From Clostridia bacterium (GTDB lineage: Bacteria; Bacillota; Clostridia; Oscillospirales; CAG-382), in contig JAFSCS010000029.1 of the NCBI GenBank assembly GCA_017436675.1, forward strand, positions 1 to 64,000: a stretch of DNA of 64,000 nt, written 5' to 3'. The translations under genes and the position numbers were made by a program. The notes under the pieces are model-generated. The model was not told where the DNA came from and made no database searches. It saw nothing but the letters and a program-made list of their open reading frames with translations. Shown one piece after another: positions 26,626 through 40,395 of this stretch; position 1 is the stretch's first letter; each line of letters begins with the position of its first letter.

Positions 26626-26647
26626 AAGCCTCCCGTTTGGGAGGCTT
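26626..26647. terminator. Terminator of the ruvC to DUF1858 operon
   Basis: AAGCCTCCC and GGGAGGCTT form a 9-bp stem with a 4-nt loop, about 15 bp after the DUF1858 stop codon. The T-rich tract on the minus side is interrupted. Confidence 0.75.
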
Positions 26648-26875: not shown

Positions 26876-29605
26876 TTATTCAAACATATTCAAACGCTCG
26901 AGGCGTTTTTCTTCTTTTTTATTTTTTTGGAGCGTGAATATCATCTTCACTGCTTCACAAAGCAAAAGCATTGTTAACGGCATCATCAACGCCATCACCA
27001 CACTTTTCGCATCAAGCATCGCATATCCGAAGCTTTTTGTATACACCAACACGAACACGCCTATCATCACGAGCGGGATCGCACGATGCATCGTTTTGTT
27101 GGAGGTTATCAGCCTCAAGCTTTTGACATCGGTATCGATCAAGCAATACAGCATCAAAACGAACGATATTGCAAAAAACGACATCGTGTATGCGATATTT
27201 TCGCCGCCACGAAGTCCGACGTTATAGTTCAAAAAGACGACGATCCCACCGACAAATCCGAACAAGCTCGGGAAAACGTAGCTATCGAGCTTCGGCTGCT
27301 CACCGTCCACCCTCTCGCCGAGGTTTTTTCCGTTGTCGCTGTAGAGTGCATTACAGATGAGCATTATCAGATTTATCACAAATCCGCCAAGAAACAGCTC
27401 TTCTATTCTGAAGGGGATACCTTTTTTTGTGAGAAGTCCCAGCATCATAGCGGTGCAAAGCATTACGTGTGGAACGACGGAATATTTCATCACGGCAAAG
27501 ATACGTTTATATATCATTTTCGCTTTTTCGATCATATTCGTCAAAACCGAAAATCCGCTTTCCGCCATAATAACGTCTGCACATTGCAGCAACGTATCGT
27601 CAGTTGTATCGGCGGAAACGAGAGACAGTCTCGCCGATGCCATATTCTCGAGATCGTCAAGTCCACGGGCGCAATATGCAACGTTTCTTCCGTTTTGCTT
27701 TCTCAGCTCGAGCACCTCTGACCACTGATCATCGGTTATACCGATAAACAGATGGTAATTCATATTATCGGCGACATATAGTCCGTGCTCCGTTTCATAG
27801 ATGCTATCCATCGTCATCGCCTCTGCCTCGCTCTTTATTATTCCCGAATCCTTCGCGAGTGATACTGCGGTATGATACGGTGAGCGTGAAAACACGACTG
27901 TGTCGATATTTGCGGCATTACAACGATATACGGCACTTGCGGCGTTAAGCTCGATCGAGGTATGCAATCCGACAAGTCCGACGAACGTCCATCCGTCCTT
28001 TGTGTCGAGTGCGGAGAGTGTGTCGCTTTCAACGTATTTTATTGCGACAGCGAACACGTGCTGACTTCTGTCAGCCATATCGCCCGCCTCATCGAGAAAA
28101 CGGTTTCGCGAGTTTTCGGCGAACGGGAAATTTTGTCCGGATTGGACGTAATCGTCGCATCTGCGCAAGACGTATTCGGGTGCGCCCTTGACGATCACGA
28201 AGCTTTTTCCCTCGTTGAGAACGAGAACTCGCTCGAGCTCTCCCGCGGGATTATATTCACCCTCGATGCGAAACAGCTTTTCCGTCACCGCATCAAGCGA
28301 GATATCAAGCTCACGACACGCTCTTGCCAAAGCGACGTCGACCTTGTTTCCGATAAATCGAAGCTTTCGCTTTTTCTTTTCCTTTTCGGTCGCATACTCC
28401 TTTTTTACGTCACTGCAAGCAAGTGCGTAGACGAGCAGCTTTCCGATCCTATCCTTATTTTCTCTTGTTACGCTATATCTGTGAAAGCCTGTAAACGCGC
28501 TTTCGACTCGCATTCCCTTCACGGGGAACGCCTCGTCGTTATTACACATTATCGAGTCACAAGCACATATATCGCCTATCGAATCGAAGCGGCGAACTAC
28601 TGCGCCCTTTTTCAGCATATTTTCGAGTCCGTCGGCAAGTATCCAGCCTGCCGCGGCGTTTACTGAATCGAAAAGAGCACAAAATCCGACACCGAGTGTC
28701 AGCAAAAACGTTGTTGGGAGGTCGTTTTTTGTCAAGACGGACACAAGCGAGATCAAAAAGCAAAATGCTATCGACAAAAGCGAGCCGACGCGAGTCAGCG
28801 ACCTTGTATATCTCAACAAGCTTGGAAGCTCCTCGGAGTTATGCTTTTGTTTTTTTCTTATCAAAAGCTTTTCTCCGACCTCGCAAACGATCGCAATGCC
28901 CGTTCCGCCCGTTACGAGCGTTCCGCCGTAGACCATATTTTTGCATACGCCGTCCGACTTCCCTTTTCTGATGAAAAGGCTGTTTTTAAACACCTCGTTC
29001 TCCTCGCCCGAAATGGGTGTTTCGAGAACGGTCAATTTGTTCGACTCCAAAAGTCTGCAATCCGCGGGCACGATACTTCCGCGTTCGAGCAACACTATGT
29101 CGCCGTGAACGAGCGAACGAGAATCGATCACTCGCTTTTTTCCGTCGCGAAGCACTGTAGTCCGCAACGATGATTGCTTTTTGACGTCTTCGAGCTTTTT
29201 GCCTGCATTATGCTCAACGATGCCGTTGGCTATCGTCATCGAGACGACCGTTGCCGCAAAAACGATATACATCGGATGCGGTGTGAAGAAATACACGACG
29301 ATACACATTGCGGCGAAAAGCAAGCTCATTATTCCCATAAGCTGAGTTCTCACGCTGTCTTTGAAGCCAAGCTTCAGATAGGGATAGAGCTCGTTGGGGC
29401 CGGACTCGTGTCTGCGCTTCTTCACGGTCTTTTCGTTGAGCCCGACGTTCATATCGGTTGCAAAATGCTCCAAGACCTCATACGGACGCATCCGTGGTGG
29501 ATCAAAGACGTTCTCGTTGTTATTACCGCCACCGATGATCGTTCGTATTCTGAAATTATCCTCCGAATCAAGCGGAGCGTTATTATTCAATTCATCTCTC
29601 CGCAT
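26876..29605 (-). CDS. Degenerate P2-type cation ATPase homologue (putative pseudo-pump)
   Basis: A 909-residue protein with the full layout of a P2-type ATPase: two helices near 85-125, an actuator domain, two helices near 270-320, P and N domains, and six C-terminal helices. The actuator keeps a TGES-like SGEE (199-202), and the N domain keeps KGAPE (473-477). The phosphorylation loop DKTGTLT reads DSIMCNN (350-356), with only the Asp kept. The ion-site PEGL reads LFDSV (near 311), MTGD reads VFSR, and GDGVND reads ARGLDD. The frame is open throughout. It is co-transcribed between clpE-like and DUF1858 genes. Transport by a normal E1-E2 cycle seems unlikely. Confidence 0.85.
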   Translation of the reverse strand: MRRDELNNNAPLDSEDNFRIRTIIGGGNNNENVFDPPRMRPYEVLEHFATDMNVGLNEKTVKKRRHESGPNELYPYLKLGFKDSVRTQLMGIMSLLFAAMCIVVYFFTPHPMYIVFAATVVSMTIANGIVEHNAGKKLEDVKKQSSLRTTVLRDGKKRVIDSRSLVHGDIVLLERGSIVPADCRLLESNKLTVLETPISGEENEVFKNSLFIRKGKSDGVCKNMVYGGTLVTGGTGIAIVCEVGEKLLIRKKQKHNSEELPSLLRYTRSLTRVGSLLSIAFCFLISLVSVLTKNDLPTTFLLTLGVGFCALFDSVNAAAGWILADGLENMLKKGAVVRRFDSIGDICACDSIMCNNDEAFPVKGMRVESAFTGFHRYSVTRENKDRIGKLLVYALACSDVKKEYATEKEKKKRKLRFIGNKVDVALARACRELDISLDAVTEKLFRIEGEYNPAGELERVLVLNEGKSFVIVKGAPEYVLRRCDDYVQSGQNFPFAENSRNRFLDEAGDMADRSQHVFAVAIKYVESDTLSALDTKDGWTFVGLVGLHTSIELNAASAVYRCNAANIDTVVFSRSPYHTAVSLAKDSGIIKSEAEAMTMDSIYETEHGLYVADNMNYHLFIGITDDQWSEVLELRKQNGRNVAYCARGLDDLENMASARLSLVSADTTDDTLLQCADVIMAESGFSVLTNMIEKAKMIYKRIFAVMKYSVVPHVMLCTAMMLGLLTKKGIPFRIEELFLGGFVINLIMLICNALYSDNGKNLGERVDGEQPKLDSYVFPSLFGFVGGIVVFLNYNVGLRGGENIAYTMSFFAISFVLMLYCLIDTDVKSLRLITSNKTMHRAIPLVMIGVFVLVYTKSFGYAMLDAKSVVMALMMPLTMLLLCEAVKMIFTLQKNKKEEKRLERLNMFE

Positions 29606-29620
29606 AGATTCGTTCCTTTC

Positions 29621-31897
29621 TTAAAGTGCGGTCACCTTTATCGCTCCGTTTTCTACGTCGACCGCGATCGCGCTGATCGATGAGCCGAAGCTGTTGATGA
29701 TATTCGATGCGATCTCGTCCTCGATATCCGTTTGGATCAAGCGGCGGAGGTTACGAGCGCCGTATTTTTGGCTATATCCTTTTTCTGCGAGATAATCGAC
29801 GACCTTGTCGGTATATCTGAAGGTGATATCCTTTTCCTTCAACACGCCCTCGAGATCTCCCAGCATAATTTTGCATATCTCTTTGATATTATCCTCGGTG
29901 AGTCGGTTGAAGACGACGATATCATCAACTCTGTTCAAAAATTCGGGACGAAGGAACTCCTCGAGTGCTTTCATCACCTTATCCTTGTCGCTCTCAACTG
30001 CCGTTCTGCCAAAGCCTGCCATCATTCCGCCGATGCTGCTGCCGGCGTTGGTAGTCATTACGATTACGGTATTTTCGAAGTTGACCTCTTTTCCGTGAGA
30101 GTCGGTTATTCTTCCGTCGTCAAGGATCTGAAGAAGGATATTCATCACGTCGGGGTGTGCCTTTTCTATCTCGTCGAAGAGGACGACGGAATAGGGCTTT
30201 CTTCTGATCTTTTCGGTGAGTTGACCTGCATCGTCATATCCGATATATCCGGGAGGTGAGCCGATGATACGGCTTACCGCATATTTTTCCATAAACTCCG
30301 ACATATCGAGGCGAATGAGTGCCTCAGGACTATCGAAGAGGTAGTTTGCAAGTACTTTTACAAGCTCGGTCTTACCGACGCCCGTGCTGCCCGCAAAGAT
30401 GAACGACACGGGCTTCTTTTTGTAGCTTATTCCCGCGCGCGAGCGTTTTATCGCTTTTGCGATCTTTTCGACCGCCTCGTCTTGACCGATTATTCGCTCC
30501 TTCAACGCATCTTGAAGTCGATCGATGCGCCTGAATTCGTTTTCGGAGATGTTTGAGGCGGGGATACCCGTCCACACCTCGATAACCTTTGCAACGTCCT
30601 CGAGCGACAGAGTGAGCTTATCACGTTCCTTCGACAGCTCGTTGAATTTGTTTTTCAGTTGCATCTCCTCGGTCGTTTTCTCGGCGAGCTCCTTATAGGT
30701 CTCCTCGGTCTTATCGACGACTGCCTCCAGATTTTCGCGAAGGAGCTTCACCTCGGTGAGCTTTTTCGCTGTCGTTTCGATCTCCTCAACGATCGGAGAG
30801 TGCATTGAAACGTGGGCTGATGCCTCGTCCATCAAGTCGATCGCCTTGTCGGGAAGATAACGGTCGGTGATATATCGCTCCGAGAGCGTTACCATTTTTT
30901 TCGCAACGTCGTCGGGGATCCTTATTCCGTGGAATTTTTCGTAATATCCTTTTATTCCGAGAAGTATCTCGATCGAAGCCGCAACGGACGGCTCGTTTAT
31001 CATTACGGGTTGGAATCTGCGCTCAAGAGCACTGTCCTTTTCGATATGCTTTCTGTATTCAACGAGAGTCGTTGCACCGATAAGCTGTATCTCACCGCGA
31101 GAGAGTGCGGGTTTAAGGATGTTTGCGGCGTTCATTCCGCCCTCTGCATCACCCGCTCCGACTATCGAATGGACCTCGTCGATGACAAGGATCACGTTTC
31201 CGTGCTTCTTTGCATCCTCGATGAGCCCTTTCATACGGCTTTCAAACTGTCCTCTGAACTGTGTTCCTGCGACGATACCCGTCATATCGACGAGCATCAC
31301 CTCTTTATTTTTCAGCTTATAGGGCACCTCGCCCTTCGCTATCTTTGAAGCCAACGCTTCCGCGACGGCGGTCTTGCCGACGCCCGGCTCACCGATGAGG
31401 CACGGGTTATTCTTTTGTCGGCGGCAAAGGATCTGCATCACTCGTTCGAGCTCGCTGTCTCTGCCGACGATGTTGTCGAGCTTTCCGTTTCTCGCGCGTT
31501 CGGTGAGATTTATGCAATATGCGTCGAGAAATTTATATTTATCCTGTTTTTTCTCTTGTTTTTTCGAGCCTGTCTCGCCCTTTTCACTATCGACGTTGGG
31601 CTGAGGCATTCCGCGAAAGAGGTTTCTGATATCTATTGCAGGTGCTCTTCCCTCGTCGTCATCGCCATCCTTTTGGTCGACCATATCGGGAAGACCGCCG
31701 CTGAGCTCTCCTGCCATCGCTTCGAGCTCATCCTCGGAAACACCCATTTTTTCGATTATATCGGAGATCGGTTTTATTCCCAACTCCTTGGCACAGGTGA
31801 TGCAAAGTCCTTCATTGAAGCTCTTGTCGCCCTCGATCCTTGTGACGAAAACGACGGCAACTCTTTTTTTGCATCTACTGCAAAGCTTAAGATCCAT
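29621..31897 (-). CDS. Clp protease ATP-binding subunit, ClpE-like
   Basis: A 758-residue Hsp100 unfoldase that would feed substrates to ClpP. A four-cysteine zinc finger (LCSRCKKR, LCITCAKELG) occupies residues 5-40, as in ClpE, and there is no ClpC-type repeat domain. AAA1 has GEPGVGKTA and VILVIDEVHSI. A middle UVR/coiled-coil segment spans about 380-430. AAA2 has GSTGVGKTE and VVLFDEIEKAHP. It overlaps pgsA by 11 bp and precedes the degenerate ATPase gene by 15 bp. Whether it is ClpE or a ClpC variant is not certain; the zinc finger favours ClpE. Confidence 0.92.
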   Translation of the reverse strand: MDLKLCSRCKKRVAVVFVTRIEGDKSFNEGLCITCAKELGIKPISDIIEKMGVSEDELEAMAGELSGGLPDMVDQKDGDDDEGRAPAIDIRNLFRGMPQPNVDSEKGETGSKKQEKKQDKYKFLDAYCINLTERARNGKLDNIVGRDSELERVMQILCRRQKNNPCLIGEPGVGKTAVAEALASKIAKGEVPYKLKNKEVMLVDMTGIVAGTQFRGQFESRMKGLIEDAKKHGNVILVIDEVHSIVGAGDAEGGMNAANILKPALSRGEIQLIGATTLVEYRKHIEKDSALERRFQPVMINEPSVAASIEILLGIKGYYEKFHGIRIPDDVAKKMVTLSERYITDRYLPDKAIDLMDEASAHVSMHSPIVEEIETTAKKLTEVKLLRENLEAVVDKTEETYKELAEKTTEEMQLKNKFNELSKERDKLTLSLEDVAKVIEVWTGIPASNISENEFRRIDRLQDALKERIIGQDEAVEKIAKAIKRSRAGISYKKKPVSFIFAGSTGVGKTELVKVLANYLFDSPEALIRLDMSEFMEKYAVSRIIGSPPGYIGYDDAGQLTEKIRRKPYSVVLFDEIEKAHPDVMNILLQILDDGRITDSHGKEVNFENTVIVMTTNAGSSIGGMMAGFGRTAVESDKDKVMKALEEFLRPEFLNRVDDIVVFNRLTEDNIKEICKIMLGDLEGVLKEKDITFRYTDKVVDYLAEKGYSQKYGARNLRRLIQTDIEDEIASNIINSFGSSISAIAVDVENGAIKVTAL

Positions 31898-32447
31898 AAT
31901 TATTGTCCTTTTTCTCTAAATATATATATATAAACTTGATCGCATACATCGAAAGCGCGAACACCTCGGATGCGATTATCAGAATATTCATTATCATCAT
32001 AACACTGCTGCTCGGTGACGGCATTACTATCAAAGCTGACACAGCAACGAAAAGCACGAACGTTGCGAGCTTTCCGAACCAATTGGACGGAGCAACTGCT
32101 TTTTTCTTTCTCGCAACGAGCGTTGCGCCGATGAGCATCAGAAGCTCCTTGAAAAACACCACCAAGATCACGGGATATGACAGTCTGTCAGTTACAACAA
32201 GGCAGATCACCGCAACGAATTGCATAAGCTTGTCGGCGACGGGATCGAGTATCTTTCCGAGCTCTGTTATCCAATTGTTCTTTCTTACAAGATATCCGTC
32301 CAGCACGTCGGTAAACCACGCCAAAGCATATATTCCGAGCGAGAGATAGCCTTTGTGCTCCGCCTCGGACATATACACGAATACGAATATCGGTATCATC
32401 AGCAAACGTATTATCGATAATACGTTTGGAATATTACGCTTCCACAT
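31887..32447 (-). CDS. pgsA: CDP-diacylglycerol-glycerol-3-phosphate 3-phosphatidyltransferase
   Basis: A 186-residue integral membrane enzyme making phosphatidylglycerol phosphate. It starts with NIPNVLSIIRLLMIPIFV as usual. The CDP-alcohol phosphotransferase signature is DGYLVRKNNWITELGKILDP with VADK following. The usual DGxxAR Ala is Val here, but the Asp, Gly and Arg ligands are in place. An ATG at 32447 is used, with GGAGG 11 bp upstream. A TTG further upstream would swallow that site. Confidence 0.93.
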   Translation of the reverse strand: MWKRNIPNVLSIIRLLMIPIFVFVYMSEAEHKGYLSLGIYALAWFTDVLDGYLVRKNNWITELGKILDPVADKLMQFVAVICLVVTDRLSYPVILVVFFKELLMLIGATLVARKKKAVAPSNWFGKLATFVLFVAVSALIVMPSPSSSVMMIMNILIIASEVFALSMYAIKFIYIYLEKKDNNYGS

Positions 32448-32486
32448 ATTTTGAAATTCCTCCAAAGCAATTATACGTCGATATGA

Positions 32487-33203
32487 TTATTTTCCGGTGA
32501 TAAAATTCAAAACGATATTCGTTTCGTCAGCGAAGAGCTTGAACACAAACGATGATGCGGGATCGATCTCGATCCCCTTCGTTTTAAGATACGGTATCAA
32601 GAGCACGACTGCCGCACTCAAGATATATACGAGGACAAGTCCGTTTATTGCACCCATAACGAAGCCGAGCGCCTTGTTTGCTTGCTTCAAAAGCGGGAGC
32701 TTACATATCTTGTCGAGCAGATAGGTTGCAAGCTTTATTGCGAAATAGCATACCAAAAACAGCACGAGCAACGTTATTCCCGAGGCGAGAAGATCAACGA
32801 TCGGATTAATTATTGCCGCGATCATCTTTTCGCGAACGTTTTCCGACGAATCGCTCAGCCAGCCCTCATATTGCAGCTTCAATTCGTTATAATCTATTCC
32901 AAAGCTTTCAAGCAGCTCCAAAAATTCCTCCGGTCTATTCTCCATCAAGCTGTCGATATCGAAGTTTCCTTCGCTGTCGACCTCGATGCTTTCGAGCTTT
33001 TCTGCGATCACTACCTTCAAATCATCCGTTATTCCGCTCTCAAGCATTTTATCCTTTACGGGTTGATAGAAGACGAACGTCAAGATCAACGCCAACAAAA
33101 GACTGACTGTACCCATAACGGTCTTCACAAAGCCTTTTTTTGTTGCGTTTGCGATACAAAGCACAAAAACCGCTACTATTATGATATCCAACACGTATCC
33201 CAT
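32487..33203 (-). CDS. CvpA family membrane protein
   Basis: A 238-residue protein with the CvpA pattern. It opens with helix-loop-helix DIIIVAVFVLCIANATKKGF and continues VKTVMGTVSLLLALILTF. A roughly 80-residue loop follows, then two more helices and LLKQANKALGFVMGAINGL. CvpA-like proteins are linked with colicin V secretion and envelope integrity, with no settled mechanism. It lies between the DUF5711 gene and pgsA in the long operon. Confidence 0.88.
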   Translation of the reverse strand: MGYVLDIIIVAVFVLCIANATKKGFVKTVMGTVSLLLALILTFVFYQPVKDKMLESGITDDLKVVIAEKLESIEVDSEGNFDIDSLMENRPEEFLELLESFGIDYNELKLQYEGWLSDSSENVREKMIAAIINPIVDLLASGITLLVLFLVCYFAIKLATYLLDKICKLPLLKQANKALGFVMGAINGLVLVYILSAAVVLLIPYLKTKGIEIDPASSFVFKLFADETNIVLNFITGK

Positions 33204-33226
33204 TATTTATCTCTCTTTCTTTAATT

Positions 33227-34471
33227 TTATTTTGCCGCAGAATTAATATTATAAAAATCGATATACTGTGCGCCGCTCTGACTTATAAACACTATTCCGC
33301 CCGAGACGAACGCGAAGTCGCTGTATCTCGGCTCAAGTGTCATCGTTTTTCTTTGGGCGGTCTTCATATCGTATATCACGAGCTTTCCCTTTATCATTAT
33401 GTAGAGCTTTCCTTCGTTTACTCTTGCACGAAGGATGTCGCCGTCGAAATACTCGTCAACGAGGATATTTCCGCCGACGTCAAACAGCTTCAATCTCGCT
33501 GAGTTTCCGACTATTTGTGTTCCATAGGTTATTATAGCGTGATCGTCTTCAAAAAAGAACCGTTTCATCGACTCATTTTCAAGATCGATCTCTTTTTTCA
33601 GCTCGAAGCTCTCACTGTAGAAGCGCAACGCCTTGTCGGTGAGGACGAGGATATCGCCGCTCGGCTGACGCTCGACCTTCAACGGATACTCTCCGAGATA
33701 CTTCAGGATGTGTTGCTCCTTTTCGCCCGACATATTATAGTGGGCGACCTCAGCAACGAAATCTCCATCGGACGCGCTGACGAGCAATGCATAGAAATCC
33801 TTTCCTTCGTCGGAGATATCAACTGATACGACGTGACGGCTTCCGTATGATTTTCGGTAGATCAATCTGTTTGCCGAGTCGTATGCTATAAAGCCCGAGG
33901 TATATCCTCTTTCGGCTGTGATGACACAATACGCGCCGTTGGGATTGACCGCAACACCGTAGATCGGATAATCATAGGTATAGCTTTTTATTTCCGAATA
34001 GACGTTGAATATCTTCAAAGTATTGCTACCCATTCCGAGATCGTATGCAAACAAGAATTTATCGCTCACCGCTATTGCGGGATATGCAAAATTGAACGAG
34101 GTCTTCAACGAGCGTTGACCGTTGAGGTCATAAATATTGACTCCCGAGCCGTCAACGGCGACGAGGTTGTCACGCATTACCCCTATCTCCGCTTTTCCGT
34201 CTTGGTCGAAGATGATCTCTTTTCCGCTGACAACTGCGTTCGAGGATGAAAAATCGAGGTATTTCATCATATATCGGAAATTCTCGAGGTTGAGCTCACT
34301 TCCGTTTGACCATACTCCGTATACGATATACAAGATGAGCACCAACGCGACGGTATATTTCACAAATTTAATTTTGTCAGCGCATTTATTGTAATAGGAT
34401 GCCGGTGTCAGCACCTCGGAGGATATACTTTTTTTCTTTTTTCCGCTTGAAAATACCGAAAATGCCTTCAC
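33227..34471 (-). CDS. DUF5711 family membrane-anchored beta-propeller-like protein
   Basis: A 414-residue protein with a cytoplasmic N-terminus, one membrane helix (YTVALVLILYIVYGVW, near 38-54) and a long extracytoplasmic part. This part consists of repeating beta blades (LVAVDGSGVNIYDLNGQ, IAVSDKFLFAYDLG, VYEIVR-like returns), matching DUF5711. It starts at a GTG behind AAGGATGTG. A scaffold or surface-assembly role is plausible but unproven. It is followed by the CvpA-like gene. Confidence 0.8.
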   Translation of the reverse strand: MKAFSVFSSGKKKKSISSEVLTPASYYNKCADKIKFVKYTVALVLILYIVYGVWSNGSELNLENFRYMMKYLDFSSSNAVVSGKEIIFDQDGKAEIGVMRDNLVAVDGSGVNIYDLNGQRSLKTSFNFAYPAIAVSDKFLFAYDLGMGSNTLKIFNVYSEIKSYTYDYPIYGVAVNPNGAYCVITAERGYTSGFIAYDSANRLIYRKSYGSRHVVSVDISDEGKDFYALLVSASDGDFVAEVAHYNMSGEKEQHILKYLGEYPLKVERQPSGDILVLTDKALRFYSESFELKKEIDLENESMKRFFFEDDHAIITYGTQIVGNSARLKLFDVGGNILVDEYFDGDILRARVNEGKLYIMIKGKLVIYDMKTAQRKTMTLEPRYSDFAFVSGGIVFISQSGAQYIDFYNINSAAK

Positions 34472-34491
34472 TCTGTCACATCCTTTCTTTT

Positions 34492-35226
34492 TTAATAGAA
34501 CACTTTATTGAGGTATAATCCGTGAGCGGGGGCGGTGAATCCCGCGTTCGCTCTGTTTTTGCTTTCGATTATTTCGTCGATATCCATCTTCAAGCTTCCC
34601 GCCGAATGATAGATCATCGTTCCGACCATTATTCGCACCATATTATAGAGAAATCCGTCCGCTTTCACGCGGAAGATATAACGGTCGTCGCCTTCCTTTA
34701 TCAGCTCACATTCGCTGACCGTTCTCACGGCATCCTCTATTTTCGAGTGAGATGCCATAAACGAAGAGAAGTCCTTTTTCCCGATATAATGCTCGCAAGC
34801 CTCTCTTGCTCGGTCGGGATCGAATTTTTTCGGGTAGAAGAATTCTCTTCCGTCAAAAAACGGATCTCTTATTTTTGAGTTTCTGATAACGTAGATATAT
34901 TCCTTTCCGAGCGAGCTGTATCTCGCGTGGAAGCCGTCCTCACGCCAAAACGCATCGGTCACGGCGATATCGTCCGGCAAAACTCCGTTAAGCGCGATCG
35001 GAAGGCGCGAGATATCGGCAAACTCGAAATCACTTCCGAGATGCGCATAATACTCGTTTGCGTGTACTCCGCTGTCTGTCCGACTGCATCCGCTGACGCT
35101 GTAACGCTTTCCAAGCAGCTTCTCGAGTCCGTCCTGGAGAGTTTCTTGGACGGATCGTGCATTTTTTTGGACTTGCCATCCGCTATAATTTGTTCCGACA
35201 AATCTGATCTTTACAACCGGTACCAT
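34492..35226 (-). CDS. truA: tRNA pseudouridine synthase A
   Basis: TruA modifies U38-U40 in the tRNA anticodon arm. The 244-residue protein begins with the typical VKIRFVGTNYSGWQVQKNA. It has the catalytic Asp in SGCSRTDSGVHA, YHARYSSLGKEYIY in the middle, and FLYNMVRIMVGTM near the C-terminus. The ATG at 35226 is preferred over an upstream in-frame start that would lie inside ecfT. In Firmicutes truA often follows ecfA-ecfT, as it does here. Confidence 0.96.
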   Translation of the reverse strand: MVPVVKIRFVGTNYSGWQVQKNARSVQETLQDGLEKLLGKRYSVSGCSRTDSGVHANEYYAHLGSDFEFADISRLPIALNGVLPDDIAVTDAFWREDGFHARYSSLGKEYIYVIRNSKIRDPFFDGREFFYPKKFDPDRAREACEHYIGKKDFSSFMASHSKIEDAVRTVSECELIKEGDDRYIFRVKADGFLYNMVRIMVGTMIYHSAGSLKMDIDEIIESKNRANAGFTAPAHGLYLNKVFY

Positions 35227-35240
35227 AATTTCGCTCCGAT

Positions 35241-36059
35241 CTATAGCACGAAGCTGATGTTGTTTGCAAGTAATGCCAACACGCACACTGCGGCAAAGCC
35301 AAGCAAGAACACGAAATCACCGGGCTTGAATTTCAGCTGCTTCATTCTCGTTCTTCCCTCGCCACCCGTATAGCAACGGCATTCCATCGCTTTTGCAAGC
35401 TCCTCGGCACGTTTGAATGCCGAAACGAAGAGAGGTATCAGGATCGGTATCAATGCTTTTACTCTGTCGGTCAGCTTGCCGTTTTCAAAATCGGCACCCC
35501 TTGCCTTTTGGGCACATATTATTCGATCGGTCTCCTCGACGAGCGGCGTGATGAATCGAAGTGCGATCGTCATCATCATCGCAAAATCGTGGACGGGGAC
35601 CTTCAGATATTTTAATGGCATCAAAAGACGCTCGATCGCATCGGTGAGATCCATCGGCGACGTTGTGTAGGTCAAGATCACGAACGATCCGCTGACGATA
35701 CAAACGAGGCGCAAGACCATAAAGACCGCTTGGCGAACGCCCTCAAGATATATATTTATAAATCTCCACGAAATAAGGGGATCTCCCTCGCCCTTCGTCC
35801 AAAAAATACTGATAACTGAAGTGAAGCATATTACGAACAAAAGCGGCTTCAAGCTTTTCAGGATCGTTTTCATCGAGATCCCCGAAAAAAGTATCAACGC
35901 CGTCGTCACGATGAGCATTGCCAAAAATGCCGCATCCGTTCGACAAAAGAATACGCTCACAAGAAAGATCAACGAAATGAGTATTTTCATTCTTGCATCA
36001 GTTTTATGGATGAAGGAATTTCCCGGAAAATATTGACCGAGTGTTATATCCTTAATCAT
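35241..36059 (-). CDS. ecfT: ECF transporter transmembrane subunit EcfT
   Basis: A 272-residue T component linking EcfA ATPases with vitamin-specific S components. The N-terminus GQYFPGNSFIHKTDARMKIL is the usual opening, followed by four to five membrane helices. The C-terminal coupling helix carries AKAMECRCYTGGEGRTR, the region with the ATPase-contacting Ala-Arg-type motif. It starts 9 bp after the fused ecfA gene. Confidence 0.95.
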   Translation of the reverse strand: MIKDITLGQYFPGNSFIHKTDARMKILISLIFLVSVFFCRTDAAFLAMLIVTTALILFSGISMKTILKSLKPLLFVICFTSVISIFWTKGEGDPLISWRFINIYLEGVRQAVFMVLRLVCIVSGSFVILTYTTSPMDLTDAIERLLMPLKYLKVPVHDFAMMMTIALRFITPLVEETDRIICAQKARGADFENGKLTDRVKALIPILIPLFVSAFKRAEELAKAMECRCYTGGEGRTRMKQLKFKPGDFVFLLGFAAVCVLALLANNISFVL

Positions 36060-36068
36060 TTTTCTAAA

Positions 36069-37805
36069 TTACTTCCTTTTCGGCAAGATCGGTTCAAGAA
36101 GCTCTGCCGCTTTTTTTATCGTATAGATATCGCTTCTTTTCACGAGTCCGCGCTTTTGCAGCTCGACGAACAGCTTCGTGATCTGCGGTACGTCGAGTCC
36201 CGTTTCAAAGAGCATATTCCAATTTTTAAAGATCTGACTGACGTCGCCGAACGCCTTTACTCTGCCGTCCTTCATCACGAGGATCTGATCGGCGTATTTT
36301 GCGATGTCTTCCATACTGTGTGAGATCATAAGCATCGTCGAACCGTTTTTACGGTGGTAATCGATGAGTCCGCCGAGAACGTTGTCACGTCCCTCGGGAT
36401 CGAGTCCCGCCGCAGGCTCGTCGAGAACGAGTATCGACGGGCGCATTGCGATAACTCCCGCCATCGCAACTCTGCGCTTTTGTCCGCCTGATATCTCAAA
36501 CGGTGAGCTGTCGAGTATCGAGTCATCTATCCCGCAAAATCTCGCCGCATCCTTGACGCATTTATCGAGCTCGTCGCCCTTTATTCCCATATTTTTCGGT
36601 CCGAAGGCGATATCCTTATATATCGTTTCCTCAAAGAGCTGGTATTCGGGGTATTGGAAAACAAGTCCTACCTTCGATCTTATCTTTCCCATCTCCTTCG
36701 GCTTTTCCCAAATATCAACGCCGTCGATATACACTTTACCTGCGTCCGGCTTCAAGAGTCCGTTGAGAAGTCGCGCGAACGTGGATTTTCCGCTTCCGGT
36801 ATGACCGATGAGTCCGATTATCTTGCCCTTTTGCAATCTTATCGAAAGGTTATCGATCGCTACTCTGTGAAAGGGAGTACCCTTTCCGTATTCGACGGTG
36901 ACGTTTTCAAGCTCTATTGCCGCATCTCCGCTCAAAGAAGCCGTACTCGACGACTTCGATTCATCGTCGGAGATCGATCCGTGTATTTCTTCGATATGAT
37001 CAGCCGCTTCAAGAGTGTGCAATATTCCGCGTTTTACGTCGCATCCGAGCTTTTCAAGCTCATACATCAGCTCTGTTATTTGCGGAACCGTGAGTCCGTA
37101 TTCGACCATTTTTTCGACCTCGCCGAAAAGCTCACGAGGGCTTCCGTCCATCGCGACAGTACCCTTGTTCATAAGTATCATTCTATCGGCAAGTGCGGCT
37201 TCGTTCATATAGTGCGTTATCGTGATAACCGTTATCCCCTGCTCACGATTGAGCTTTGCGAGGGTATCCATAACGTCTTTTCTGCCCTTTGGGTCGAGCA
37301 TCGCCGTCGCTTCGTCGAAGATTATACACTTCGGGCTCATTGCGAGTATTCCCGCAACGGCGACCTTCTGCTTTTGACCGCCCGAGAGCTTCGAGGTGGA
37401 ATGCATCTTATATTCGCTCATTCCGACGATCTCGAGGCATTCATCAACTATCTCACGTATCCTTTTTGGCTCTACGCCGAGGTTTTCGGGTGCGAACGCG
37501 ACATCCTCCTCAACGATGGAGGCTACTATTTGGTTGTCGGGGTTTTGGAAAACCATTCCGCAGGTACGTCTCAGCTGCTCAAACGTATCGTCGTTCGATG
37601 TATCGAGTCCGTCAACCGTCACCTTTCCGCTATTCGGGAGAAGTATTCCGCAGATGAGGTTCGCGAGAGTCGATTTTCCGCTTCCGTTATGACCGACTAT
37701 TACGGTAAACGTACCCTGTTCAATTTTTATGGACACGTTCTTTATCGTCGGTCCGTCGCTTTCCGGATAGGAAAAGCTTATATTATCCAATTCTATAAAT
37801 GACAT
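36069..37805 (-). CDS. ecfA: Fused ECF transporter ATPase EcfA1-EcfA2
   Basis: A single 578-residue protein contains both ATP-binding subunits that are normally separate genes of about 280 residues. The N-terminal half has GHNGSGKSTL, FQNPDNQIVASIVEEDVAF, LSGGQKQKVAVAG and IIFDEATAML. The C-terminal half, from about 310, has GHTGSGKSTFA, FQYPEYQLFEETIYKDIAF, ISGGQKRRVAMAG and LVLDEPAAGLDPEG. A Ser-rich linker lies between them. Both halves keep Walker A, signature and Walker B. The ATG at 37805 overlaps the methyltransferase stop as TAATG. Confidence 0.93.
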   Translation of the reverse strand: MSFIELDNISFSYPESDGPTIKNVSIKIEQGTFTVIVGHNGSGKSTLANLICGILLPNSGKVTVDGLDTSNDDTFEQLRRTCGMVFQNPDNQIVASIVEEDVAFAPENLGVEPKRIREIVDECLEIVGMSEYKMHSTSKLSGGQKQKVAVAGILAMSPKCIIFDEATAMLDPKGRKDVMDTLAKLNREQGITVITITHYMNEAALADRMILMNKGTVAMDGSPRELFGEVEKMVEYGLTVPQITELMYELEKLGCDVKRGILHTLEAADHIEEIHGSISDDESKSSSTASLSGDAAIELENVTVEYGKGTPFHRVAIDNLSIRLQKGKIIGLIGHTGSGKSTFARLLNGLLKPDAGKVYIDGVDIWEKPKEMGKIRSKVGLVFQYPEYQLFEETIYKDIAFGPKNMGIKGDELDKCVKDAARFCGIDDSILDSSPFEISGGQKRRVAMAGVIAMRPSILVLDEPAAGLDPEGRDNVLGGLIDYHRKNGSTMLMISHSMEDIAKYADQILVMKDGRVKAFGDVSQIFKNWNMLFETGLDVPQITKLFVELQKRGLVKRSDIYTIKKAAELLEPILPKRK

Positions 37806-38668
37806 TATTCTCTCGTCCAACGGCTTGCCGCTCCGCAAGGAAGCGCCATGCCTTTATCGGTAATCATTAATCCAAGCTCGTCGTTCTCGACCTTGCCGCC
37901 AAATCTGTTTTTCACGTAGAGGTCGAGCAGACATCCGCAGCTTGAGGCGGAAAGTCCCGTTGTATATGAGTTGAGCAGGAAGAAAAGCGGCTCGTCGCTG
38001 AGAAGCATTGCCGTTCTTTTCACGAGCTCGTCAGCCATCTGCTCCATTTGCCACACCTCTCCGTTTGAGCCTCTGCCGTAGGAGGGCGGATCCATTATTA
38101 TTCCGTCGTATTTCTTTCCGCGGCGGATCTCACGCTCGACGAATTTCAGACAATCGTCGACGATATATCTGATCCTGTCTTGCGGTACGCCCGACAGATT
38201 TGCGTTCTCCTTCGCACGAGCGACCATTCCCTTTGATGCATCGCAATGGCAAACGAATGCGCCTGCCTTTGCCGCCGCGACGGTGGCACCGCCCGTATAT
38301 GCGAACAAGTTGAGTACCCTTATCTCGCGGTCTTCTTTTTTTATCAGCTCGGAGAACCATTCCCAATTCGCCGCCTGCTCGGGAAACACGCCCGTATGCT
38401 TGAAGCCCATTGGGGACACGATCATCTTTACGTCGCCGTAGGAGATATTCCATCTTTCAGGAGTATCGTTCTTCACCCACGAGCCGCCGCCCTTCTCGGA
38501 GCGTTTATAATAGCCGTGACATTTTTTCCACAAAATATTCTTTTTTTCCGTTTTCCAAATTACTTGTGGGTCGGGACGAACGAGGATATATTTTCCCCAA
38601 CGCTCGAGACGTTCGCCGTCCGTCGCATCGATGAGCTCATAATCCGTCCATGATCGTGGTGTTATCAT
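37805..38668 (-). CDS. Class I SAM-dependent methyltransferase, RlmI/RlmK-like
   Basis: A 287-residue Rossmann methyltransferase. Motif I (VLNLFAYTGGATVAAAKAGA, near 118-137) and motif IV (GIIMDPPSYGRG, near 193) match the rRNA large-subunit cytosine methyltransferase group. The protein lacks the N-terminal PUA domain of RlmI, having instead a short beta domain (ERLERWGKYILVRPDPQVIW). The target base is unknown. It lies between ruvB and ecfA. Confidence 0.88.
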   Translation of the reverse strand: MITPRSWTDYELIDATDGERLERWGKYILVRPDPQVIWKTEKKNILWKKCHGYYKRSEKGGGSWVKNDTPERWNISYGDVKMIVSPMGFKHTGVFPEQAANWEWFSELIKKEDREIRVLNLFAYTGGATVAAAKAGAFVCHCDASKGMVARAKENANLSGVPQDRIRYIVDDCLKFVEREIRRGKKYDGIIMDPPSYGRGSNGEVWQMEQMADELVKRTAMLLSDEPLFFLLNSYTTGLSASSCGCLLDLYVKNRFGGKVENDELGLMITDKGMALPCGAASRWTRE

Positions 38669-38683
38669 TCTCTTTTTCCTTTT

Positions 38684-39775
38684 CTATTTATCGTTATCGC
38701 CAAACAGCGTTGTCTGTGCCGTTTGCTTTTGCTGCAGCTGTGGCATTTCGAGTCCGAGGTGCTCGTATGCACCCTTCGTTGCCATTCTTCCGCGAGGCGT
38801 TCTGTTGATAAAGCCTATCTGCAACAGATACGGCTCATATACGTCCTCAAGCGTTACAGCCTCCTCGCCAATTACTGCGGCGAGTGTTTCAAGTCCGACG
38901 GGGCCGCCGCCGAATTTCGTTATTATCGCATCGAGAAGTCTTCTGTCGACAGAATCGAGTCCCAATTCGTCAACGTCGAGGCTGCGAAGCGCCATATCTG
39001 CGGTAGTCTTATCGATGATACCGTTGCCGAGCACCTGCGCAAAGTCACGCACACGCTTCAAGAACCTATTGGCGATACGCGGAGTACCTCTTGAGCGCGA
39101 GGCTATTTCAAGTGCGCCGTCGGGCGTTATCGGTGTTTCGAGTATCGATGCGCTTCGAGTTACTATTTTCGCAAGCTCCTCGGGTGAATACAGCTCGAGG
39201 CGGAAGATTATTCCGAATCTGTCACGAAGCGGTGACGTGAGCTGACCTGCGCGAGTCGTTGCGCCGATGAGTGTGAACGGCTCAAGAGGGATACGAATGC
39301 TTCTCGCGGACGGACCTTTTCCGACCATAAAGTCAAGCCTAAAATCCTCCATTGCAGGATAGAGTATCTCCTCAACTGTTCGAGGAAGACGGTGTATCTC
39401 GTCGATAAACAATATATCGTTCTTTTCAAGTGACGTCAGCATCGAGGCGAGGTCTCCCGCTTTTTCGATGGTGGGTCCCGAGGTTATTTTTATATTCGCA
39501 CCAAGCTCCGATGCGATGATGGTAGACAGAGTCGTCTTACCGAGTCCGGGAGGTCCGTGGAGCAAAACGTGGTCAAGTGATTCGCCACGCTGAAGTGCGG
39601 CGGAGATATAGACGGAAAGGTTTTCCTTTACCTTCTCCTGACCGACGTATTCGTCCATCGATCTCGGGCGAAGGCTTATTTCACCGTCGTGGTCCTCTTC
39701 TATTTGCTCGGCGGAGGCTATTCGTGCTTCAAAATCATATTCATAATCTTCCATTTGGTTGACGTTTCTCGGCAT
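38684..39775 (-). CDS. ruvB: Holliday junction branch migration helicase RuvB
   Basis: A 363-residue AAA+ motor of the RuvABC resolvasome. It shows [18 protein letters not shown], Walker A in [14 protein letters not shown], Walker B in [10 protein letters not shown], the sensor GATTRAG and the C-terminal winged helix ([13 protein letters not shown]). The start is an ATG behind GGAGG. Order ruvC-ruvA-ruvB is the usual one. Confidence 0.98.
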
Positions 39776-39792
39776 TTTTCTTCCTCCTTCCG

Positions 39793-40395
39793 TTATTTAT
39801 CCTTTGATAATTTTTTCAATGCCACCTTGATTATATCTTCAAGTGAAAGCGACGGATCACAGCCTTTAACTGCGTTTACCGCTTCGCTTCTCGTATATCC
39901 GAGCACCAAGAGTGTATCGACCGCCTCGGAGAACGATGCCTTCGAGCTTGATGCGGTAGGCGCGATATCCTCGACACCCTCAAGCTGTTCGATCTTCATT
40001 TTATCCTTGAGGTCAAGGATTATTTTTTGCGCTGTCTTTAGTCCGACACCGGGTGACATCGAGATCGCCTTCGGGTCGTTGTTTGCTATTGCGGAGATAA
40101 GGCGGTCAACGGAGAGCGTTGACAATATCGAAATTGCCGCCTTCGGTCCGACGCCCGAAACGGTGATGAGCTTCGTAAACGCACTATGCTCATCCTCGCT
40201 ATAGAACCCGAAAAGCTCCATCGCATCCTCGCGGACACTGAGATAGGTATATAGCTTCGCGGTCTTACCGAGATGCTTCGCAAGTGCGGAATAGGTATTG
40301 TTGCTGACGGTCAGCTTATAGCAGACGCCGCCGCAATCTATCGCGGCATATCCGCCAAAGAGAGTTACGAGCGTTCCGTTGAGGTAATAGTACAT
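39793..40395 (-). CDS. ruvA: Holliday junction DNA-binding protein RuvA
   Basis: A 200-residue RuvA with an N-terminal OB fold ([20 protein letters not shown]), central helix-hairpin-helix motifs ([16 protein letters not shown] and [19 protein letters not shown]) and the C-terminal domain III ([18 protein letters not shown]) that contacts RuvB. Confidence 0.97.

Follow-up and report, generated by a model that had tools for sequence, protein, structure and literature searches.

P-type ATPases are an enzyme superfamily defined by a phosphorylated aspartate. What, then, is a gene that encodes the complete P-type domain order, lacks this aspartate, and is kept in an intact reading frame? The question is raised by a 64,000-nucleotide stretch of DNA from a Clostridia bacterium (contig JAFSCS010000029.1, positions 1 to 64,000), referred to as the window in the following. 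At 26876..29605 on the minus strand it carries a gene for a P2-type ATPase homologue of 909 amino acids without catalytic and ion-site motifs (the pseudo-pump), as judged from its open reading frame, Pfam, NCBIfam, motif alignment and an AF2 model. The reading frame starts with ATG at 29605, ends with a stop at 26876 and is intact over 909 codons; the plus-strand frame of the same interval contains many stops. A preliminary description, made from the sequence alone, had proposed a homologue of P2 cation pumps in a 909-codon frame free of stops, and both the homology and the frame (29605 to 26876, minus strand) were borne out.

Pfam recognizes the A domain (E1-E2_ATPase, E 2e-22), the N domain (Cation_ATPase) and an N-terminal cytosolic domain, together with a weak match to the C-terminal membrane domain. 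The HAD hydrolase (P) domain has no Pfam match in the pseudo-pump, whereas it is clear in the active pump of the same genome. The nearest NCBIfam model is that of PMR1-type Ca2+ pumps (TIGR01522; E 2e-48, 165 bits against a cut-off of 798), and no NCBIfam cut-off is reached. The best PDB match by sequence is the Listeria Ca2+-ATPase (E 9e-32). Going by these matches, the P-type homology is far above chance. The protein displays ten hydropathy peaks, and the A, P and N domains stand in order between ten membrane segments, as is characteristic of the P2-type (IIA) fold family. Structure modelling by AF2 returned a confident and complete P-type fold (mean pLDDT 84.4, pTM 0.79), the input alignment containing active pumps, which may bias the model in favour of the canonical fold. 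Its closest structures are SPCA1, LMCA1 and SERCA in E1-type states, with Z 34 over about 820 residues. Residues 1-31 are modelled with low confidence and are probably disordered.

Motif replacements were read from an alignment with active pumps, and SERCA residue numbers were assigned to the positions by motif, following the established numbering. At the phosphorylation site, MCNNDEAFP of the pseudo-pump aligns to CSDKTGTLT, with Asn (N355) at the position of the phosphorylated Asp; the former DKTGTLT loop reads CNNDEAFPV (codons 354-362, 28520..28546, this and all following motifs on the minus strand) and now carries the family signature C....AFP. The former GDGVND loop is ARGLDD (codons 646-651, 27653..27670), its first acid being replaced by Arg, and the position of the P-domain Lys684 is occupied by Trp (codon 628, 27722..27724), as in 29 of 30 sequences of the window's own family, designated f1. 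VFSRS stands for ITGD (codons 571-575, 27881..27895), LFDSV for PEGL in M4 (codons 311-315, 28661..28675), and SGEE for TGES, the dephosphorylation loop of the A domain (codons 199-202, 29000..29011), a position that is diverse in the other homologues. The N-domain turn KGAPE is retained (codons 473-477, 28175..28189). The alignment thus agrees with the preliminary description, which had named SGEE for TGES, DSIMCNN at DKTGTLT, VFSR for MTGD, ARGLDD for GDGVND, LFDSV for PEGL, and an intact KGAPE. Of the marks of a P2 enzyme, DKTGT, GDGxND together with Lys684, and TGES are missing.

The ion and nucleotide sites are altered as well. The cation-site positions N768, E771, N796 and D800, which a cation pump would require, are H, L, G and N in the window protein; across the family, the carboxylate ligands E771 and D800 are gone and the E309 position is mostly Asp. 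The N-domain ATP-contact positions F487, R489, K492 and K515 are Y, G, E and K, only K515 being kept of these four. As far as sequence can tell, pumping is ruled out: most members have lost the phosphorylation site (the Asp in 25 of the 30 f1 sequences), the Mg2+ site is not intact, and both TGES and the M5-M6 carboxylates are missing. Since the carboxylates of the cation site have disappeared along with most ATP contacts, the protein is not a pump and is unlikely to sense ATP. The suggestion of a nucleotide-binding regulator was not upheld either: the F487, R489 and K492 contacts are replaced and only the KGxPE turn is left, so that a role as ATP or nucleotide sensor appears unlikely, and this reading was rejected.

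The carriers of the pseudo-pump form a group of gut and sediment Clostridia comprising three families of one order (f1, f17 and f20). A search of 60 related genomes yielded more than 20 strong relatives in f1, and profile searching across the order (394 genomes) brought in further f1 members and the second family, f17; in the contig scan, an alignment query retrieved homologues and a single-protein query retrieved none. The alignment comprises 52 sequences: the main f1 set contributes 30, while f17, the f1 genus g3 and f20 together contribute 22. Identity is 29-41% for homologues in the window's family and about 20% outside it. The named carriers are metagenome-assembled genomes, that of the window being 54% complete. 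The homologues share the lost motifs: DKTGT and GDGxND are absent in all 52. In an independent collection, all 23 members of the pseudo-pump family lack DKTGT and GDGxND, whereas all 31 other P2 pumps have both, and ordinary P2 pumps elsewhere in the carrier genomes retain the motifs. In a class-wide search, the profile of a broad pseudo-pump alignment did not discriminate between pseudo-pumps and active pumps; both motifs are intact in each of the 29 best hits outside the window.

Neither motif-complete close homologues nor many broken frames were found among these sequences; an in-frame stop (TGA), which may reflect an error, recoding or a recent break, occurs in one of the 52, L013 (G013:C5:18324-20993). 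Close pairs of pseudo-pumps display a low dN/dS of 0.06-0.21 (Nei-Gojobori), about twice that of the neighbouring ClpE (0.03-0.10), and the gene is under clear purifying selection. Homologues, frames and dN/dS strongly support the earlier proposal that the protein is kept intact though catalytically dead: an enzyme fold with its catalytic motifs gone, conserved under selection, is a pseudoenzyme. In f1, 101 positions are conserved to at least 85%, and 38 of them are unlike active pumps. Examples are W628 at the Lys684 site, F360-P361 along with C....AFP in the former DKTGTLT loop, R701, and, in the membrane part, N745 at Asp800 and G741 at Asn796. Pairwise identity is highest in the A domain (0.48) and among the lowest in the membrane segments (0.21-0.32; 0.21 in the last ones). 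To judge by these residues, such a signature of its own fits a repurposed protein and not a relaxed one.

Two features of the termini may be mentioned separately. A short conserved motif like IRTIT..S is present in the probably disordered N-terminus of the pseudo-pump in many f1 members (window 29486..29605, minus strand, codons 1-40) and is a candidate docking peptide. Members from the genus g10, namely L012 (1447-4617), L016 and L019, have long, highly acidic extensions at the C-terminus that most others lack; the one in L012 measures roughly 150 residues.

Upstream of the pseudo-pump, on the same strand and at a gap of 15 nt in the window, lies a gene for a ClpE-like AAA+ unfoldase (29621..31897, minus strand) with an N-terminal CxxC/CxxC zinc-finger-like region, two AAA domains and an xGF loop of the ClpP-docking type, as seen from Pfam and architecture. 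This is the architecture of ClpE in the ClpE-ClpP protease of Firmicutes, and it is the basis of the name, no NCBIfam equivalog cut-off being reached by the protein. Downstream, a gene for a redox-disulfide-like small protein of 73 amino acids (DUF1858/TIGR03980; 26662..26883, minus strand) overlaps the 3′ end of the pseudo-pump by 8 nt and is directly followed by a terminator-like hairpin with a 9-bp stem (26626..26647, minus strand; a consensus match only), which is likely the end of the operon. Further upstream, at 31887..40395 on the minus strand, conserved genes encode RuvA, RuvB, a methyltransferase, ECF ATPases, EcfT/CbiQ, TruA, DUF5711, CvpA and a PgsA-like protein. The tight operon noticed at the outset is thereby confirmed. 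The DUF5711 protein (33227..34471, minus strand) is near-constant in the CvpA-ClpE operon across the loci examined.

In f1 loci with flanks, the order is ECF ATPases, EcfT, TruA, DUF5711, CvpA, often PgsA-like, ClpE and pseudo-pump, with a neighbour missing or uncalled in the automatic gene calls at a few loci. The pseudo-pump follows clpE on the same strand at a median gap of 35 nt (loci with both genes called, mostly f1). The same clpE orthologue also immediately precedes it in one f20 genome, in f17 and in genus g3, so that homologues lie beside clpE in three families; in f17, g3 and f20 the adjacency is kept though identity is only about 20% and the genes further downstream differ. The sole exception among loci with flanks is G131, where the pair of pseudo-pump and DUF1858 gene is found away from clpE (L181, L182) and clpE, located on another contig, is followed by no P-type gene. 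In sister genera and in other families, clpE occurs without the pseudo-pump. Of about 49 usable loci, 43 have the DUF1858 gene as the next one downstream of the pseudo-pump, G131 among them. The gene is near-universal in the order, non-carriers and some carriers having it at other places, so its linkage to the pseudo-pump need not mean function, and it was rejected as an obligatory partner. Its product has a CLGCP motif, and the gene takes this next position in both f1 and f17.

In a tree of pseudo-pumps and active pumps the two sets are fully apart, and f1, f17 and g3 form one group each, on long branches that call for caution. A ClpE tree places all carriers in one clade, starred in that tree, together with the related genera g4, g7 and g9, which have no pseudo-pump gene; the fewest changes on it are two. 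We infer a single ancient gain followed by losses, which the ClpE tree fits and which is favoured because it also explains the shared position. In an ancestor of several families of this clostridial order, acquisition or duplication would have placed a P2-type (Ca2+-ATPase-like) pump gene immediately behind clpE, and the pump would then have lost catalysis and ion transport and been retained as a pseudoenzyme.

Taken together, we consider it probable that a dead pump is kept here for a non-catalytic role. The pseudoenzyme would span the membrane with ten helices and have its A, N and P domains folded, but would form no aspartyl phosphate and transport no cation. It would still possess a large cytosolic head anchored in the membrane, in which the A domain and a new P-domain pocket are conserved, and by means of these surfaces the protein may act as a membrane scaffold or regulatory partner. 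The likeliest single partner would be the neighbouring ClpE, probably co-transcribed, with membrane tethering, localisation or substrate presentation as conceivable tasks. ClpE is the most natural candidate, its gene being adjacent to that of the pseudo-pump in three families; as it is gene order that points to ClpE, we name it as partner tentatively. The more specific idea of a dedicated membrane receptor or tether for ClpE(-ClpP), which would be the first membrane adaptor of ClpE and the first described bacterial P2 pseudo-pump, appears rather doubtful.

The earlier interpretation holds in part, and a scaffold or regulator of ClpE is one conceivable form of it. The conserved gene order speaks for it, whereas co-varying ClpE residues do not: four columns of ClpE split carriers from non-carriers as against two in a control split, which is no signal, and co-evolution with ClpE was rejected. 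The conserved adjacency may also be plain vertical inheritance in a rarely rearranging region. ClpE of E. faecalis works without adaptors in vitro, and adaptors for localisation or special substrates have been left open (PMC13125188). While clpE is typically monocistronic (PMC13125188), it is here part of a long operon with the pseudo-pump.

A different use of the same protein would be that of a passive membrane device, such as a channel or a lipid-handling or lipid-sensing protein, in which the ten-helix core is reused without ATP, a function that has been advocated for human TMEM94. All ten segments are retained, N745, G741 and R701 are specific to the family, and human TMEM94 combines a P-type-like fold with bound lipid and no detectable ATPase activity (PMC12134183). 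However, it is the A domain and not the membrane that is best conserved, the segments being among the least conserved parts (0.21-0.32 against 0.48), and the carboxylates E771 and D800 are gone with E309 mostly Asp; we regard such a device as improbable.

It is somewhat less probable still that the protein, as a non-catalytic partner, forms a heteromer with or puts a brake on an active P2 pump whose gene lies elsewhere in the genome. The preliminary description had named regulation of a real pump as an option, and in f1 an active P2 pump is indeed found in 35 of 37 carriers but only in 1 of 12 non-carriers (raw Fisher p 3e-8). This co-distribution stems from only about two independent evolutionary events and fails correction for relatedness. 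Furthermore, G002 and G143 (91% and 94% complete) have the pseudo-pump and no detected P2 pump, the less complete G336, G290 and G262 likewise, and the pump occurs without the pseudo-pump in many further families of the order. With only two independent pairs, and with carriers in which no P2 pump was detected, the active P2 pump was rejected as partner, and the option remains a weak one. P2-type cation pumps were also undetected in f1 genera without pseudo-pump (G003, G006, G008, G015, G018, G019, G027, G034 and G035), G024 being excepted.

Alternatively, the protein could still be an enzyme with displaced catalytic residues, as one group claims for ERMA/TMEM94 (DKQGI, GSSANL), which is reported to be active despite GSSANL and a missing TGES (PMC13322241). 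Members of genus g2 retain aligned D and K at the phosphorylation motif, most f1 members retain Asp at the former TGD position, and many f17 members have Lys684 and Asp707. Since a minority of the family thus keeps single catalytic residues, such as D and K in g2, unusual chemistry retains a slight chance; the alignment displays no single catalytic acid or Lys common to the whole family, the phosphorylation Asp is lost from most of f1 and is Asn in the window protein, and Trp replaces Lys684 almost throughout f1, which makes this explanation very unlikely. A decaying pseudogene or a sequencing artefact, in favour of which the TGA in L013 and the lack of the gene in g4, g7 and g9 could be quoted, is hardly credible, and recent decay was rejected, in view of intact frames across many species and families and in independent assemblies, a uniform motif loss shared by 52 homologues, and the low dN/dS.

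The best sequence and fold matches of the pseudo-pump are bacterial P2A Ca2+-ATPases (Listeria LMCA1/lmo0841; PMR1/SPCA, TIGR01522), with which it shares domain order, ten segments and the A/N/P fold; unlike them, it is devoid of DKTGT, TGES, PEGL, GDGVND, the cation carboxylates and most ATP contacts. The nearest precedents for its condition are eukaryotic, namely TMEM94/ERMA, GC-beta and CATP-1. In human TMEM94/ERMA, GDGVND is GSSANL, TGES is missing, the nearest structure is SPCA, and enzyme activity is disputed (PMC12134183, PMC13322241). As described, it resembles the pseudo-pump in its P-type-like architecture and the missing GDGVND and TGES, but it is a eukaryotic ER protein that keeps DK in DKQGI, whereas the pseudo-pump is bacterial, has lost the Asp in most members and is encoded in an operon with clpE. 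Plasmodium GC-beta retains a degenerate P4-ATPase domain whose signature residues are largely lost (PMC6592433); it differs in that the domain is of the P4 type and belongs to a protist protein in which it is joined to a cyclase. C. elegans CATP-1 is reported, in work cited in PMC11631496, to act apart from pumping; it differs as an animal protein of the Na+/K+-ATPase type, and it is described as a cation pump that works. Among the open-access papers searched, which do not cover the whole literature, none described a bacterial P-type pseudo-pump. Going by its sequence, a member of the P-type fold that lacks the marks of a P-type enzyme constitutes a new pseudoenzyme branch of a known superfamily.

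For this lineage, it would be an error to treat these genes as cation pumps in annotation and metabolic models. The family also offers a simpler system for the dispute on TMEM94/ERMA. In an old bacterial family, selection has preserved the whole machine but none of its chemistry, which shows that the P-type fold has a second use. If the pseudo-pump does bind ClpE, bacteria would gain a membrane-anchored branch of Clp proteolysis, and, if it is a tether for ClpE, a transporter fold would have been recruited to membrane proteostasis.
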